Of a stretch of DNA of 64,000 nucleotides, positions 2,029 through 9,788 are shown piece after piece (within the stretch, counting starts at the first letter, position 1; each line of letters opens with the position of its first letter). Below the pieces are notes generated by a model. The model was given only the letters and a program-made list of their open reading frames with translations. It was not told the origin of the DNA and made no database searches. A program made the translations under genes and the position numbers. Origin of the DNA: Haloglomus salinum (lineage in GTDB: Archaea > Halobacteriota > Halobacteria > Halobacteriales > Haloarculaceae). The stretch is taken from contig NZ_CP101153.1 of assembly GCF_024298825.1 (NCBI RefSeq), positions 310,001 through 374,000 on the forward strand, in the 5' to 3' direction.

Positions 2029-5000
2029 CTATGCCCCGCCGGTGTTCCCGTCCTCGTCCTCGCGGGCGAGGTAGAGCGCGGCACCCGCACCGGCGATCAG
2101 CAGGAGCAGGATGAGCGCTCCGAGCAGGATTGCCGTGTTGTCGCCACCGTCACCGGGCGGCGACGTCTCCGTCGGCCCTGTGGGCGAGGGGGTGTCCGTC
2201 GGCGTCTCGGGCGTCGGGGTCGCCGTCGGCGTCTCGGGCGTCGGCGTGACGGGTGTCGGGGTCGGCGTGACAGGCGTCGCCTCCTGTCCCGTCACGGCGA
2301 ACAGCGAGAAGCCCGGCGTCTCGGACTCGTAGATCAGCGTCCCGCTGGACTCGCGGACGAGCGTGGTGTCGAGCGGCTGCCACTCGCCGTCGTTGAAGCG
2401 GTACATCCGGATGGTCTCGGCGTCGGCGCCGAGGTCGGCGAGCTGTGACCGCTCGACCTCGAACTGGATGGTGGCGCCCTGGTCACGGAGTTGTTCGGGC
2501 ACGGTGATATCCAGCGTCCGCACAGAGAGGCCCGGGGGCTGCGGCGTCCCACGCGGAACCCGGTTGAGCTGGTCGACGTTCGCGCGGCCTTCGGCGGCCT
2601 CGGGGAACGTGATCTCTCGGACCGATGTTCTCGGGAACCGAACCTGTACGCCGGGTTTGCGACTGTTCTGGTCGAAGACGCGCGAGGAACTCCGGTCCTC
2701 GACGTCCTGCGGGAGGACCGTCACGAGTCCGGCGGACTGCCCGTTGACACGCACCGGGAAGCGGCCCGCCTCGGTGAACGTCAGCGGGATCTCGAGGGTC
2801 CTGGTTTCCCCGGCGGCGAGGGAGATCGTTCTGGTCGCCCGCCGGTCGCCCCTGACCCTGACGGCGATTTTCTGCTCCAGCAGCGCCGCGTTGCTCCGGT
2901 TGTTCCGCACGGTCACCGTCACCGTGGTGGTGTTCCCCGGTGCGATCCGGTCCGGGCTCACCGAGGTGTCGACCACGACGAATGGTGAGCTGGGTTGAGC
3001 GGGGGCAGCACCGCCTCCCCCACCGCCGCCACCGCCGCCGTCGCCGTCGCCATCGTCTTCGTCTTCATCATCGCCATCGTCGCCACCGGTGTCCGGCGCT
3101 TCGATGGTCAGGGTTCCCGTGGCCGTACTGAAACTCCCGTACCCCTCGCCCTGCTGGGCGAGGTAGACGAACTGGTACGTCCCGGTTGCGAAGTTCTCGT
3201 CCGTGGCAACCTGGACGGTCGGGGTCGAACCTGGGGAGGCTGAAATCGACTTCCCCGACGCGTTCACCACGGTGGTCACCGACTTCGGCTTGACGTACTC
3301 CGGACCGAGCAGCGACTGCTCTCCCTCCGAAATCCCGTCGAGCGTGAGATCGAGCGTCTGCCCGTACAACGTCTCGTCGACCGATATCGGTTCCTCGAAG
3401 TTGGTGGTCCCGCTGATCGCTCGGATGCTGGTTTTGACCGTCACATCGGACGTTGAGACCGACTGCGAGAGCACGTCATCGAGTGTGACACCCGAGTCGA
3501 GGATGACATCCACGAACGCGTCACTGACCGCGTCACGGTCGTAGACGGCGATTGCGTGGGTCGTATCCTCGGGCCCCGTGAGCCCCGAGTCGAGCGTGAA
3601 CTCGACCGGGTCACCAGCAGTCACCGTCGACGATGTCGGTGTGGCGCTCCCCTGCGCCTCCTGTACGGGAACGACCGTCGTGCCGATGATATCGATACCG
3701 CCCTGAACCTTGACCTCGTTGTCGGTCGTGTCCGGGTCGGTCAGCCCCTCACCGAACTGTGGCTGAACCAGAACGAACGCGACTGGGCCCGACGATGGCG
3801 GGTTGTACGTCGGGTTGGTGGCGAACGTGCCGTCAGACTGGATCGTGAGAGAGCTCCCGTACAGCTTCGTGTTCGTCGCGTCGGTCTGCAGCGTCACGGT
3901 GCCCGTCGCGTTGTCGAAGGACCCTCCGGTCAACAGGTCGGACTGGCTCGTCGAGCTGACGCCCTCGAGAATCAGCAGCTGGGCTGTGCCGGAGCGGTCG
4001 GTGGTATCCGCACCGTCAACGTTGGAATATTCGAGCGTAAGGGGCTGACCCTTCTGATAGACGGTCAGCTTGTTCTTGTTGATCTCCACAGCAGTCCCAC
4101 CTTGCTGCTTGACGGAGATGGTCGGAATCGGAGCACTGGTCGCCGCCGAGCCGGTCGTTCCACGAAGGGGCAACCCTGCCCGGTTCCACACACAGGTCGG
4201 GAGCGCTGCCTCGACCGAGACCCCGCGGATCTCCGTGGGATAGTTGTCCAGTTCCGAGGAGAGCGAGTCGAACGCGCTCGTGAACTGGCTCCCGCTGCAG
4301 ACGTTCGACTTGCCGAGCCACGGGTCGAAGGCGACATTGCCCGTAATCCCCTGCCCGGTTCCTGGCCCAATTCCACTGGGACCACTGTCGTCGGCAAAGT
4401 AGTTCTGGCGGGCGACGAACTCAGACGACAGTTCGCTATCGACTGCTGTCAGCGTCGTCGAATCCGAGGTCCCGTCCTGGAAGAAGTTGAATGCGAGCCG
4501 GATACCGCTCGGATTGAAATCTCCGCTGCTTGTCGTAAGGTAGACGCCCTGGGTATTGTTCTGTATAAGATTGAGGTAGACGTTGGCCTCGGTCCCGGGG
4601 TCACCGCCGCTGTAGGTGGACCCACTGAATTCGATTGCGGTTGAATCAACAGAATCTGACCCCTCATCGTCTTTCCCGTTGAGGAGGTTCTCCGTGATGG
4701 TTACGCCGCTGATGCTAGTTGGAGCCGAAATATCGATACCGCGTTCGTAACTGACGATTCCGTTCTTCTTGACAGTTACATCAGTGGGGTCGGAGAGGAT
4801 GATACCGTCCGTGACCTCGCCGATCTTGTTGTCGGTAATCTCGGTCGTGCCGGAACTGCTGGTGCTCGACAGTTTGATTCCCGTGTCGACGTTTCCAACG
4901 AGGTTGTTCCTGATTGCGACATCACCGGAACTCGCCACGTCGATACCGGTGGTGCTGCCTCCGTCGAATTCACCGATGTCCGAGTGGTTAACTGTGAGTC

Positions 5001-5466
5001 CAGTCACACCGCTGGCAGAGATGCCGGTGCCGGTGTAGCCGGTGATGGTGAAGCCCTCGTTCCCAGCCTGTGCGCCGGCACCGATGGTCACGTCGGCGGC
5101 CTGCACGTCGAACGCCGTAGAGTAGTCCGTCGGTGCGGTCGGCGTGTTCCCGACCATCTTCACCCCGTCCTCGTAGGTGACGATGGTGATCGACTCGTCG
5201 ATGGTCACCGGTTCGGTGTACGTTCCACTGCAGACGAGCACCGTGTCATCAGTTTGCGCGTTCCCGACGGCATTCTGGATGTTGAGGTACTCTTCGGAAT
5301 CAGTGACGCCTGGTACGCCACATGCTGTTCCGGGGTTCGGATCAACAACCAGTGTATCCCCCCCACTCGGTGCGGCCGCCACGTGGCCCGCACCGAACGC
5401 GAGCACCCCCGCGAGCGCGGACACGAGCAGCAGGAAGGATAGCGTAACTGCTCTCAGACGAGACAT
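2029..5466 (-). CDS. Large secreted surface protein: beta-helix, CARDB-like, PGF-pre-PGF domain, C-terminal anchor
   Basis: 1145 residues. A Sec signal peptide occupies about residues 1-32 (SFLLLVSALAGVLAFGAGHVAAA). Residues ~50-390 show short repeated units rich in N, G, T and I (ITDNKIGEV, IRNNLVGNV), typical of a right-handed parallel beta-helix. A D/E/G-rich linker with a run of Gly begins near 792. Residues ~827-920 resemble a CARDB/adhesion beta-sandwich. Residues ~935-1060 match the haloarchaeal PGF-pre-PGF domain, ending with YESETPGFSLFAVTGQ. A Thr/Pro stalk (1062-1108) and a membrane helix (1111-1133) with an acidic tail follow. There is no PGF motif before the helix, so anchoring is probably a plain membrane helix. 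Likely an S-layer-associated adhesin or scaffold and a candidate glycosylation target. Confidence 0.85.
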   Translation of the reverse strand: MSRLRAVTLSFLLLVSALAGVLAFGAGHVAAAPSGGDTLVVDPNPGTACGVPGVTDSEEYLNIQNAVGNAQTDDTVLVCSGTYTEPVTIDESITIVTYEDGVKMVGNTPTAPTDYSTAFDVQAADVTIGAGAQAGNEGFTITGYTGTGISASGVTGLTVNHSDIGEFDGGSTTGIDVASSGDVAIRNNLVGNVDTGIKLSSTSSSGTTEITDNKIGEVTDGIILSDPTDVTVKKNGIVSYERGIDISAPTSISGVTITENLLNGKDDEGSDSVDSTAIEFSGSTYSGGDPGTEANVYLNLIQNNTQGVYLTTSSGDFNPSGIRLAFNFFQDGTSDSTTLTAVDSELSSEFVARQNYFADDSGPSGIGPGTGQGITGNVAFDPWLGKSNVCSGSQFTSAFDSLSSELDNYPTEIRGVSVEAALPTCVWNRAGLPLRGTTGSAATSAPIPTISVKQQGGTAVEINKNKLTVYQKGQPLTLEYSNVDGADTTDRSGTAQLLILEGVSSTSQSDLLTGGSFDNATGTVTLQTDATNTKLYGSSLTIQSDGTFATNPTYNPPSSGPVAFVLVQPQFGEGLTDPDTTDNEVKVQGGIDIIGTTVVPVQEAQGSATPTSSTVTAGDPVEFTLDSGLTGPEDTTHAIAVYDRDAVSDAFVDVILDSGVTLDDVLSQSVSTSDVTVKTSIRAISGTTNFEEPISVDETLYGQTLDLTLDGISEGEQSLLGPEYVKPKSVTTVVNASGKSISASPGSTPTVQVATDENFATGTYQFVYLAQQGEGYGSFSTATGTLTIEAPDTGGDDGDDEDEDDGDGDGGGGGGGGGGAAPAQPSSPFVVVDTSVSPDRIAPGNTTTVTVTVRNNRSNAALLEQKIAVRVRGDRRATRTISLAAGETRTLEIPLTFTEAGRFPVRVNGQSAGLVTVLPQDVEDRSSSRVFDQNSRKPGVQVRFPRTSVREITFPEAAEGRANVDQLNRVPRGTPQPPGLSVRTLDITVPEQLRDQGATIQFEVERSQLADLGADAETIRMYRFNDGEWQPLDTTLVRESSGTLIYESETPGFSLFAVTGQEATPVTPTPTPVTPTPETPTATPTPETPTDTPSPTGPTETSPPGDGGDNTAILLGALILLLLIAGAGAALYLAREDEDGNTGGA

Positions 5467-5593
5467 TTTCGAAAGATAAGTCAGAAGGCTAGTAGAAAAC
5501 AGTTTGGGTACGACAGGCGCACACTTGTTCTATCGCCCCCGAAGCAGGGGCAATACGATTCGTGGTTACGCCGTTCGCCGAGAGCGACAGAGT

Positions 5594-5601
5594 AGATTTA
5601 T
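5594..5601 (+). promoter_or_regulatory. TATA-like box for the 5629 surface-protein gene
   Basis: A/T-rich octamer (GATTTATG region) centred about 30 bases before ATG 5629 in otherwise GC-rich DNA. The spacing fits an archaeal TATA box with a nearly leaderless transcript. Confidence 0.45.
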
Positions 5602-5628
5602 GCCCCCGACGGCATCCAGAAACACGTG

Positions 5629-6840
5629 ATGAGACGAGTCCCCGTCCTCCTCACTGTGGCGGTTCTGGTGATCGCTTCGGTCTCCGGAGCGAGCGCCGCC
5701 CTCCAGCAGACCTCCACGGCGAGCATGGCATCTCCGACAGTCAGCACCCAGTCTGGTACGTACGACATCGATGTCGCCGGAAGTACGGACATACCGACGC
5801 GAGAGGTCACGGTAAGCGGGTCGACGTACACCGTCGATGCGATTGCACAACAAGAGAGTGAGGGAAGTATTTCCATATCGATCACTGCTGAATCTGATCA
5901 GTACGATATCATCTTGAAGAGGGCAGACAATACAAATATCGAGAAAATAGGCGATGAAAATGATGGTTCGAACATCGACTATACTATTCCGGATCTCGGG
6001 CCCTCGACATACTACATCGTAATCAACTCCGATAGTAAGACGCAGGCGATTCACCCGCTCGTAATCAAAGGGTACTCGGTCACAGCATCGGCAGCAGATA
6101 ACTCCGTGGAGCGGGGCACCTCGGTCGACGTAACTGTGGATATCGAACAGGTCGACCCCGATGCAGCGGCTCCCCACGCTGTCCAGGCCGTTATCGGGAA
6201 CGAGACCGACCTGGTTCGTGTCGAGGCGACGGAACAGACAGGAACGACCTACGAAGCCACGGTCCCCACTGATGAGCTATCTTCGGGGTCCTATGCGTTG
6301 TATGGCGTCGTCCGGGGACCTAACGAGACCAGTTCGGAAGAGAAGGAGGCGCTCGGCGTCAGCGACCGTCACGACGTGACCATCGAGTCGGCCGCGACGC
6401 CGACCGATACGCCGACCGACGCGCCATCGTCCGGTGGCGGCAGCGACTCTGACGATGGTGATTCGAACGGCGGGGGGTCCAGCGGCGGCGGCTCGTCGGG
6501 CGGCTCATCCGGTTCCGATGCGACGCCGACCGCGACACCGACGCCGACCGACAACGTGACGGCGACGCCCACGGAGACAGCCACGCCGACGCTGACCGCT
6601 ACGGCGACGCCGACCGCAACCCCCACGCCGACCACCACGGCGACTCCGACCGTGACCGCGACGGCCACTGCGACCCCCACACCGACCGATGACGGGGTCA
6701 TCACTCCCGCGACACCGACCGAGGACGGCCCCGGAACGGAGACGACGAGCGACGGTCAGTCCGGCTTCGGCACCGTCGTGGCTGCCGTGGCACTGCTCGC
6801 GGGAGCGCTGCTGCTGACGCGTCGCCGGACGGAGTCCTGA
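5629..6840 (+). CDS. Surface protein with Thr-Pro stalk and PGF-CTERM-like sorting tail
   Basis: 403 residues from ATG 5629; GTG at 5626 is an alternative start. A signal peptide (VPVLLTVAVLVIASVSGASA) precedes a beta-rich extracellular region, with a second domain near residues 145-250 that looks like an Ig-like fold. A Gly/Ser linker and a long TPT/TAT repeat stalk follow, then the C-terminal SGFGTVVAAVALLAGALLLTRRR. That tail matches the archaeosortase A substrate pattern (PGF, hydrophobic helix, Arg cluster), but the first residue is Ser instead of Pro. A TATA-like AGATTTA lies about 30 bases upstream, so the transcript is nearly leaderless. Expected at the cell surface, perhaps lipid-anchored after archaeosortase cleavage. 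Confidence 0.85.
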   Translation: MRRVPVLLTVAVLVIASVSGASAALQQTSTASMASPTVSTQSGTYDIDVAGSTDIPTREVTVSGSTYTVDAIAQQESEGSISISITAESDQYDIILKRADNTNIEKIGDENDGSNIDYTIPDLGPSTYYIVINSDSKTQAIHPLVIKGYSVTASAADNSVERGTSVDVTVDIEQVDPDAAAPHAVQAVIGNETDLVRVEATEQTGTTYEATVPTDELSSGSYALYGVVRGPNETSSEEKEALGVSDRHDVTIESAATPTDTPTDAPSSGGGSDSDDGDSNGGGSSGGGSSGGSSGSDATPTATPTPTDNVTATPTETATPTLTATATPTATPTPTTTATPTVTATATATPTPTDDGVITPATPTEDGPGTETTSDGQSGFGTVVAAVALLAGALLLTRRRTES

Positions 6841-7263: not shown

Positions 7264-7545
7264 ATGACACAGGACGGGGAAAACCCGCTCCCGGTATCAC
7301 GGCGGAGTTTCGTCACGGCGACCGCGGTGGTCGCGACCGCGACGGCGGGCTGTGGGGACCCGACACAGCAGTCGTTCGAGGCATCGGCCGTCGGGCTTCC
7401 CGACACCCACCACGACCCTCTCGAGGTGACCGAGACGGCGCTCGAGGACCTGAGCATGTCGTTCGACGGGCCGGCCGGGAGCCGGGTCGAGCTCACGAAC
7501 CACGCCGGGGTCTACGACCGGACCGTCGGGACGGGGGGGCAGTGA
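7264..7545 (+). CDS. Short twin-arginine lipoprotein, resembles N-terminal part of DUF6517 proteins
   Basis: 93 residues. The N-terminus contains a twin-arginine motif (SRRSFVTATA) followed by a hydrophobic stretch and the lipobox TAGC, so the product should be exported folded and lipid-anchored at that Cys. The rest (SFEASAVGLPD, VELTNHAGVYDRTVG) resembles, from memory, the first third of haloarchaeal DUF6517 lipoproteins, which normally continue into a region containing an FSTP motif. Here a stop follows immediately. The missing part has a counterpart at the end of the gene at 8088. The stop is one base before the next ATG, so the gene is in an operon with the tail-tube gene at 7547. Confidence 0.75.
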   Translation: MTQDGENPLPVSRRSFVTATAVVATATAGCGDPTQQSFEASAVGLPDTHHDPLEVTETALEDLSMSFDGPAGSRVELTNHAGVYDRTVGTGGQ

Positions 7546-7546
7546 G

Positions 7547-7993
7547 ATGGCGGACCGACACGGGCCCCTCCGGACCGGCCGGTTCGTGGTGGAGGTCGGG
7601 GGCGTCGAGGTCTCGGGCTTCCAGGTCGTCGACCTCCCGGCACGCTCCACGAAGGTGCAGGAGTACAGGGAGGGCTCCGACTCGGACCGGCAGCGCAAAC
7701 TCACGGGGCAGACGGAGTACGAGGACCTGACGATGGTCCGTGGGGCGAGAAAGGACGATGCCTCGCTGTACGACTGGCGCAAGGCCATCGAGCAGGGCAA
7801 GATGGAGGAGGGCCGGAAGGACCTCGCCGTGGTCCTGCAGGACGAGAACGGTGAGGAGGCGATCCGCTGGGAGTTCACGAACGCGTGGCCCAAGCGATAC
7901 GAACCGCCGAGGCTCGACGCGACCGCCGAGGGCGGCGGTGTCGCGACCGAATCGGTCACCGTCGTCTTCGACGAGATGCAGCGACCGGAGTAG
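7547..7993 (+). CDS. Phage/contractile-system tail tube protein (T4 gp19-like)
   Basis: 148 residues, about the length of a single-domain tube protein. Hallmarks of the gp19/conserved tail-region family: PLRTGRFVVEVGGVEVSGF near the N-terminus, EYREGSDSDRQRKLTGQTEYEDL, a YDWRKAIEQGK segment, and WEFTNAWPKRYEPPRLDAT near the C-terminus. In phage tails and extracellular contractile injection systems these proteins stack as hexamers into the inner tube. No sheath, baseplate, spike or AAA+ gene is nearby, so the role here is open. The gene begins one base after the lipoprotein gene ends and is followed after 94 bases by a second gp19-like gene that is near-identical over several stretches. Confidence 0.88.
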   Translation: MADRHGPLRTGRFVVEVGGVEVSGFQVVDLPARSTKVQEYREGSDSDRQRKLTGQTEYEDLTMVRGARKDDASLYDWRKAIEQGKMEEGRKDLAVVLQDENGEEAIRWEFTNAWPKRYEPPRLDATAEGGGVATESVTVVFDEMQRPE

Positions 7994-8045
7994 GGAGGAC
8001 CGTGTACACCAATCGCCCACGCGCGAGGACCGCGGCCGGTCCCAC

Positions 8046-8075
8046 GCGATACGATGCCGAGCGATACGATGCCGA
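8046..8075 (+). repeat. 15-bp tandem duplication before the second tail-tube gene
   Basis: GCGATACGATGCCGA is present twice back to back (8046-8060 and 8061-8075), and a partial third unit (TACGG) follows. It lies in the short gap between the two tail-tube genes, ending 12 bases before ATG 8088. It may be a replication-slippage product or a spacer element. Confidence 0.8.
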
Positions 8076-8087
8076 TACGGAGGACGC

Positions 8088-9788
8088 ATGACCGAGGACC
8101 CAGACCACCGTCGGACGATGCAGGCGTCCGGAACCGCACCATTCGTCGGCCACGCCGCGGACAGGCCACGGGCAGAGCGGGCCCGGTCACTCGAAACGCC
8201 GGACAGGCACGGACCCCTCCGGACCGGCCGGTTCGTGGTCGAGATCGGCGGCACCGAGGTAGCCGGCTTCCGGACCGTCGACCTCCCGGCACGCTCCACC
8301 GGGCTGGTGGAGTCCCGGGAGGGCACTGACGGTGACCAGCAGCGCCAGCTCTCGGGACGGACGGAGTACGAGGACCTGGAGATGGAGCGGGGGATGCGGA
8401 AGGGCGACAGCACGCTGGACGACTGGCGCACGGCCGTCGACCAGGGCAAGATGGAGGAGGCGGGGAAGGAGGTCGTCGTCTCCGTGCAGGACGAGACCGG
8501 GGCATCGGTACTCACGTGGCGGTTCACGAACGCCCGGCCGCTCGCCTACGACCCCCCGACGCTCGACGCGACCGCCAGCGGCGGCGGGGGGATCGCCGCG
8601 GAGTCGGTCACCGTCGATTTCGAGGGCGTCGAGCGCATCGCCGACAGCGGCCCGGTCCAGCAACAGCAGGGACGGGAGGATTCGGGCGTGTTCCGGTACG
8701 TCCGGACAGCGAACGGCGGCCGGATCGAGAACGGCGCGGTCGTCACCACGGCCAGCGATGTCGCCATCGACGGCGTGACGCTCGACTGGCTCGACGCGTC
8801 CGCGACGGCCGACGCCCAGCACGTCGGCCTGCTCGTGCCGGAGGGAGCCCGAAGCGGCGGTAGCGCGAGCGCCCTGTGGCTCCTCCGGGGGAGCGATTTC
8901 GACGAAGGGGCCGGCCGCACCGTCAGCTCGGGCGCCGCGGGGCGCCTGTACTGGGTGCCCGGCGGGGCGTTCTTCCACGACCGGGCCTGGCGGGCTGGCA
9001 GCGGGGAGTCCGAGTCGTCGGGGGCCGAGTCGTCACCCGAGTGGTCGGTGCCGGGGTGGCCGACGGGCGACCCGTCGTCGGTTCAGGTGCTCGTGGATAC
9101 CGGCGGGCAGTCCCTGGAGGACGCGTTCGGGATGGCCGCGGGGGGCGCCGCGGCCCAGAGTGCGGGCGTGCAGTCGGCCGCGGCGGGCGACACCGTCGAC
9201 CCGGCATCGACCGTGTTCGCGGTTGTCGGTCCGGCGACGGCCCCGTTCGAGTCGCCGTCGCTGCAGGTGAGCGGCTCCGGCCCGGGGCAGGTCGCCGACC
9301 TGCTCGATGCGGGCCGCCCCGCGCCGCTGGCCGGCGCGACGTTCGGGCTGGCGACCTTCTCGACACCGGACGCCTCCATCGCCGGGCAGTCGGTCAACCC
9401 CCTGGTCGGGATGGAGACGACGGCGTTGCTGGAACACGAGACCGCCAGGCAGGTGCTCGGGCAGGCCGGCATCACCGACATCGAGACGGTCGAGTGGCTC
9501 GACGGCCCGCGGTCGACGGGCGCCGACGCCAGCACCTCGGTCCAGATGCTCGGAACGGGAACGACGGTCGAGAGCTACGAGGGCGTCGTGAGCGGGCAGA
9601 ACGGCCCCTGGGCCGTCGCCGTTCACGTCGCCCGCATCACCGACGACTCGCACGTCATCGCGGCCGGCGCGCATCGCCAGCCGCTCGGGACGGAATCGGG
9701 GCTTTCGGGAGCGGGAAGCTGGCAGCGGGTCGTCACCCGGGGGCGACGCTTCACGGCAGAGACAGCCAGCCGACTGGAGTATCTCTAG
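8088..9788 (+). CDS. Tail-tube (gp19-like) domain fused to a long C-terminal region ending in a DUF6517-like part
   Basis: 566 residues from ATG 8088; the frame is open further upstream, but that part overlaps the preceding gene. Residues ~40-183 form a gp19-like tube domain very close to the 148-residue neighbour (shared DRHGPLRTGRFVVE, then TEYEDL, DWRTAVDQGKMEE). A Gln-rich linker follows. Residues ~195-415 are Gly/Ser/Ala-rich and not recognised. From residue ~424 the sequence (FSTPDASIAGQSVNPLVGM, later VQMLGTGTTVESY, AVHVARI, VIAAGAHRQPL) resembles the C-terminal two thirds of DUF6517 lipoproteins. There is no signal peptide or membrane helix, so export would need another route. It reads as a partner of the lipoprotein at 7264, whose sequence stops where this part would begin. 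Confidence 0.8.
   Translation: MTEDPDHRRTMQASGTAPFVGHAADRPRAERARSLETPDRHGPLRTGRFVVEIGGTEVAGFRTVDLPARSTGLVESREGTDGDQQRQLSGRTEYEDLEMERGMRKGDSTLDDWRTAVDQGKMEEAGKEVVVSVQDETGASVLTWRFTNARPLAYDPPTLDATASGGGGIAAESVTVDFEGVERIADSGPVQQQQGREDSGVFRYVRTANGGRIENGAVVTTASDVAIDGVTLDWLDASATADAQHVGLLVPEGARSGGSASALWLLRGSDFDEGAGRTVSSGAAGRLYWVPGGAFFHDRAWRAGSGESESSGAESSPEWSVPGWPTGDPSSVQVLVDTGGQSLEDAFGMAAGGAAAQSAGVQSAAAGDTVDPASTVFAVVGPATAPFESPSLQVSGSGPGQVADLLDAGRPAPLAGATFGLATFSTPDASIAGQSVNPLVGMETTALLEHETARQVLGQAGITDIETVEWLDGPRSTGADASTSVQMLGTGTTVESYEGVVSGQNGPWAVAVHVARITDDSHVIAAGAHRQPLGTESGLSGAGSWQRVVTRGRRFTAETASRLEYL

Follow-up and report, generated by a model that had tools for sequence, protein, structure and literature searches.

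CIS1-type tube proteins between the halves of a split DUF6517 lipoprotein in Haloglomus salinum

Tubes of contractile tails are usually regarded solely as components of a syringe. In the window analysed here, a 64,000-nucleotide stretch of the Haloglomus salinum genome (NZ_CP101153.1, positions 310,001 to 374,000), two adjacent genes encode such tubes immediately downstream of a lipoprotein gene, which raises the question of what these tube proteins belong to. Our best explanation, to which we assign a probability of about 0.5, is that they are a domesticated remnant of a haloarchaeal contractile injection system rather than a component of a functioning one, and that they are displayed on the surface together with a split lipoprotein that is reassembled and carried by the Tat pathway. 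The domestication of the tubes from an injection system is well supported; their display with the split lipoprotein is judged probable from the sequences.

The two tube proteins and the split lipoprotein

Tube A (7547..7993, + strand, 148 aa) is a stand-alone gp19/CIS1-type tube protein, matching PF06841 with an E of 5.1e-33 and the CIS1 model with an E of 6.7e-46. Tube B (P0003; 8088..9788, + strand, 566 aa) is a fusion protein with matches to PF06841, DUF6517 and a long-DUF6517 profile. Its start was set at the ATG at 8088, which is kept in the sister species; the mechanical ORF from 7740 begins too early. PF06841, CIS1 (NF053769) and TIGR02241 each matched both proteins, with CIS1 scores of 156 and 120 bits, both below the curated cut-off of 220 bits, and a genome-wide search of the 4.19 Mb genome identified no gp19 domain other than these two. 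The gp19 domain of tube B comprises residues 38-186 (8199..8645, + strand; E 1.1e-25). As a sequence-only reading of the window had stated, the adjacent genes thus both carry gp19-like domains, and they share their N-termini: 14 of 14 residues are identical (DRHGPLRTGRFVVE), as are 46 of the 54 bases in the first 18 codons. The AF2 model of tube A (pLDDT 79) bore out the gp19 fold, its closest PDB structures being the eCIS tubes 7aeb, 9qgl, 6j0b and 6rap (E ~1e-9). The model of the whole tube B fusion was reliable for the gp19 domain only, the DUF6517 part being mostly below pLDDT 50. The best external match was found in Haloglomus halophilum ZY41, with 86% across tube A and the same gene order.

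The upstream gene (P0001; 7264..7545, + strand) encodes a 93-aa putative Tat lipoprotein, in which a twin arginine, a hydrophobic stretch and the lipobox TAGC are all present; the score with the Pfam Tat model falls short of the cut-off. P0001 was unmatched by the Pfam PF20127 model and was recognised, with 41 bits over positions 42-126, by the long DUF6517 profile, which was built from two intact long DUF6517 lipoproteins. Such intact Tat lipoproteins, approximately 520-530 aa in length, occur in related genomes. The profile stops on P0001 at position 126 and resumes on P0003 at approximately 129, directly after the gp19 domain. Therefore, we concluded that the two are halves of one ancestral protein. 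In tube B, an N-terminal linker (residues 1-37; 8088..8198, + strand) and the gp19 domain are followed by an insert region specific to the long DUF6517 type (residues 187-420; 8646..9347, + strand; profile A4: 20 of 391 genomes) and by the C-terminal part of DUF6517 (residues 421-531; 9348..9680, + strand; PF20127 positions 71-166, E 8e-12). The region of about 380 residues that had been described as fused to tube B and unknown is indeed a fusion, but it is not wholly unknown, because the C-terminal part of DUF6517 sits there. For the same reason, the link with the upstream lipoprotein is stronger than first proposed: P0001 is the N-terminal half, and its C-terminal counterpart is fused to tube B. 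DUF6517 at this locus accordingly consists of two chains, not a single polypeptide, with the tubes between the halves.

The lipoprotein half is coupled to tube A by a TGAGATG stop/start junction (7543..7549, + strand), a junction type that recurs in H. halophilum, in the third Haloglomus genome (G391) and in split loci without tubes. The identical split without tubes was found at six loci (a second copy in G391, and G165, G252, G173, G200 and G160), where the stop and start codons overlap or adjoin (TGATG, TGAGATG or TAAGATG) in differing frames; therefore, the tubes occupy a pre-existing two-gene junction. This arrangement suggests that two chains are translationally coupled and speaks against frameshifting. 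A programmed frameshift from the lipoprotein half into tube A was rejected, as the G run is not conserved and the split loci use different frames. Three of the C-terminal halves start with M[AP]DRHGPLRTP, which is nearly the tube start MADRHGPLRTGRF, and in the second split copy of G391 MADRHGPLRT alone remains of this tube-like start. Considered as the source of the tube-like peptides in DUF6517, a simple deletion footprint fits MADRHGPLRT at the starts of the C-terminal halves, not AKKGDTTL near their C-terminus.

With the homologies, the split point and the absence of a sheath as observations, we infer an order of insertion, duplication and fusion. A CIS1-type tube gene would have inserted at the natural break in the operon of a split long DUF6517 Tat lipoprotein and been duplicated, the second copy becoming fused to the C-terminal lipoprotein half; the M[AP]DRHGPLRT start common to tubes and C-terminal halves may have served as the recombination site. 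For the assembly, export and role of the complex, we infer that the N-terminal half, with its Tat signal and lipobox, and the C-terminal half on tube B would combine in the cytoplasm to form a single folded DUF6517 domain, which would be exported by Tat as a folded complex with the C-terminal half as a hitchhiker. The tube domains would then form a ring or stub retained at the surface of the membrane, with tube A perhaps as the ring partner, and could serve as an adhesin, scaffold or binding surface.

Sheathless tubes in haloarchaea and their link to Tat export

The Haloglomus case is not unique, as orphan tubes are widespread in haloarchaea: the sheath is absent from 34 of 80 tube-positive genomes, and the majority of these carry a CIS1+CIS5 pair of single origin. 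In a tree of 145 gp19 domains, Haloglomus tubes A and B formed sister groups within the CIS1 tubes (99/86); thus, the duplication that gave the second copy predates the divergence of the three species. The sheathless pairs formed a CIS1-like clade of 24 rows (100/95) and a CIS5-like clade of 25 rows (100/97). This pair, seen without a sheath at L053, L048, L054 and approximately 22 more loci with neighbours that differ between genera, appears to be a tube and an adaptor retained after sheath loss. Nine further sheathless tubes clustered together as a third group (82/68). Its union with the Haloglomus tubes was not rejected (p-AU 0.42), so that the sequences are compatible with a joint ancestry of the Haloglomus and Tat-linked tubes.

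Three tubes of the third group have a Tat signal of their own (G097, G198 and G030, the last also with a lipobox). At the other six loci, a Tat protein is encoded within two genes of the tube in four (L058, L059, L182 and L185), and the pattern scan gave no such match at L183 and L184. Tat in cis or within two genes was hence found at 10 of 12 loci (the nine of the third group and the three of Haloglomus) vs none of eight sheath-bearing loci, in a scan that is a simple pattern and over 12 loci that are non-independent and represent about five lineages. At L047, the probable start lies downstream of a match to the Tat and lipobox pattern, and this match was therefore taken as false. At five of the nine third-group loci (L058, L059, L182, L183 and L184), the tube is followed by a fibre-like gene with a common N-terminus, and most of these loci also encode a short Tat protein; L058, where the fibre-like gene has a Peptidase_S74 match, lies on a plasmid of Natronosalvus amylolyticus next to PQQ-repeat genes of 6 kb. 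In H. salinum itself, at another locus (L105; G000:C1:4061683-4064961), a DUF6517 gene precedes a fibre-like gene that matches Peptidase_S74 and whose N-terminus resembles that of the gene adjoining gp19 in L058.

A cell-surface or secretion role, as had been suggested for the tubes from the sequence, thus receives indirect support from related sheathless tubes that bear or adjoin Tat signals, but neither tube A nor tube B has a recognisable export signal in its sequence, including the tube B linker, where there is no signal peptide. Export of the two tubes is therefore putative. The tubes may instead remain cytoplasmic, the lipoprotein half being exported alone and A and B assembling intracellularly into a ring or short tube, as the CIS1+CIS5 orphan pairs may do. 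The missing signals agree with this possibility, as does the widespread orphan pair: no tube at its 25 loci carries a Tat signal in cis, and the nine loci that appeared in the Tat scan did so through a GMC-oxidoreductase operon or a likely false match in a transporter-like protein. We nevertheless consider a cytoplasmic location unlikely, since the lipoprotein half would have to work without the C-terminal half, yet the split with coupled junctions is kept at several other loci, and a link to Tat exists for the nearest sheathless tubes.

Selection, tube-like peptides and the contractile machinery

The ORFs of the lipoprotein half, tube A and tube B (~800 codons) are open in three species at a dS of ~0.4, and their junction is kept. 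By NG86, a simple method that yields approximate values, dN/dS among the three species was 0.12-0.32 for the lipoprotein half, 0.30-0.38 for tube A and 0.36-0.47 for the whole of tube B, in which the linker is the most constrained segment of the fusion (0.10-0.15) and the gp19 part (0.39-0.76) is weakly constrained, as it reaches 0.76 between two species. Most segments of the locus fall within 0.1-0.5, similar to the neighbouring surface genes (0.27-0.35); two other neighbours gave 0-0.23. By this measure, the locus is functional, yet fast-evolving. Two further surface-type genes (PGF-pre-PGF and PGF-CTERM) adjoin the locus at window positions 2029-6840, with a dS between species of up to 1.1.

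These values bear on whether the tubes, which would then interrupt a lipoprotein gene, are decaying leftovers of an injection system that has been lost. The loss of sheath and baseplate, the short remnant of a tube start in the second split copy of G391 and the upper value for the gp19 part of tube B would fit such a relic; the open frames, the kept junction and the ratios resembling those of neighbouring surface genes argue against it, and we regard it as doubtful.

In long DUF6517 proteins without gp19, 7-mers also present in gp19 proteins occur at 2.97 per thousand residues vs 0.094 in controls (~30-fold), and such 8-mers in 16 cases vs none. The tube-like words came mainly from L138, L140, L100 and copy 2 of L099, with single words in others. 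We treat these peptides as a lead, not proof, because the count is driven mainly by the N-terminal tube motif and the long DUF6517 proteins are mutually related. Arrays of short repeats, mostly of six residues (YPGSMW, FFPDTL, IPGSTW and FPGDTW), occupy a similar place in the long DUF6517 lipoproteins of L100, L101, L102, L139, L143, L146 and L148, and TGNNPF repeats occur in L136-L138 and L140. One could speculate that haloarchaea display tube domains or tube-like DUF6517 peptides as decoys or caps against the injection tubes of attackers, as an immunity against contact-dependent killing; we consider this improbable.

The absence of other tail genes around the tubes, noted from the sequence, was found to extend to the whole genome for the sheath, gp25 and baseplate J. 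Profile searches identified no contractile sheath in any of the three Haloglomus genomes, namely H. salinum (G000, one contig of 4.19 Mb), G391 and H. halophilum (G392, three contigs); in H. salinum, the best gp25 match had an E of 0.54, under the cut-off, and baseplate J gave no match above it. This sheath model found its target in 46 of the 80 tube-positive haloarchaeal genomes, where the sheath lies beside the tubes, and therefore the method works in haloarchaea. One PAAR protein is encoded at G000:C1:201278-202093 (L103:278-1093), approximately 115 kb from the tubes; none was found in the other sheathless genomes searched, G392 excepted. The DUF6517 protein encoded 2.8 kb downstream of it has a long extension at its C-terminus. 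The tubes are of CIS1 type and this orphan PAAR protein exists, but with no sheath in three genomes, one of them in three contigs, and with tubes kept beside the sheath in the sheath-bearing genomes found, it is very unlikely that they serve a complete injection system encoded elsewhere. A prophage or proviral remnant, to which gp19 as a phage tail family might point, can practically be dismissed, because tube A had no match in 50,697 phage records, viral contigs gave one distant relative of tube A and none of tube B, and the tree places both tubes among haloarchaeal CIS1 tubes. Recruitment without a contractile machine, as first proposed, is supported by the missing sheath together with ORFs that are intact and constrained in three species.

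Comparison with known systems

In Halogeometricum borinquense, contact-dependent killing is mediated by an archaeal T6SS-like CIS that is contractile (PMC11566945). It shares the haloarchaeal tube family with the Haloglomus locus, which is sheathless. The survey of haloarchaeal CIS in that study took the sheath Cis2 as its starting point and would miss sheathless tubes by design. We found no accounts of sheathless tubes and no papers on DUF6517 in the literature searched, where absence is not proof of absence. Many haloarchaea have kept tubes without a syringe in the form of a pair of single origin, and others have them in forms linked to Tat or embedded with a lipoprotein. If they reach the surface, a phage-tail fold would have been put to a new use, and the capabilities of a lone tube protein could be studied in a tractable way.

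The orphan CIS1+CIS5 pair resembles the Haloglomus tubes in lacking a sheath, but it is of a single-origin tube and adaptor type, has no lipoprotein link and represents a separate event. Haloarchaeal DUF6517 lipoproteins (PF20127) are matched by both Haloglomus halves and share the Tat lipobox; the Haloglomus form differs in that it is divided into two chains and carries tube domains at the split point. The CIS1 inner-tube proteins of extracellular and T6SS-like CIS (NF053769, TIGR02241, PF06841) are similar in sequence and predicted fold, and the N-terminal DRHGPxR motif is common to the Haloglomus tubes and many haloarchaeal CIS tubes. The Haloglomus genome, however, is without a sheath or baseplate J, its tubes are embedded in a lipoprotein operon, and it has two tandem CIS1-like copies instead of CIS1 and CIS5. 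Hcp forms the tube of the T6SS, and evolved Hcp carries a C-terminal extension. Tube B has the same class of fold and the same arrangement of a tube with a C-terminal extension, but in Haloglomus there is no sheath, and the extension is half of a lipoprotein, not a known effector.
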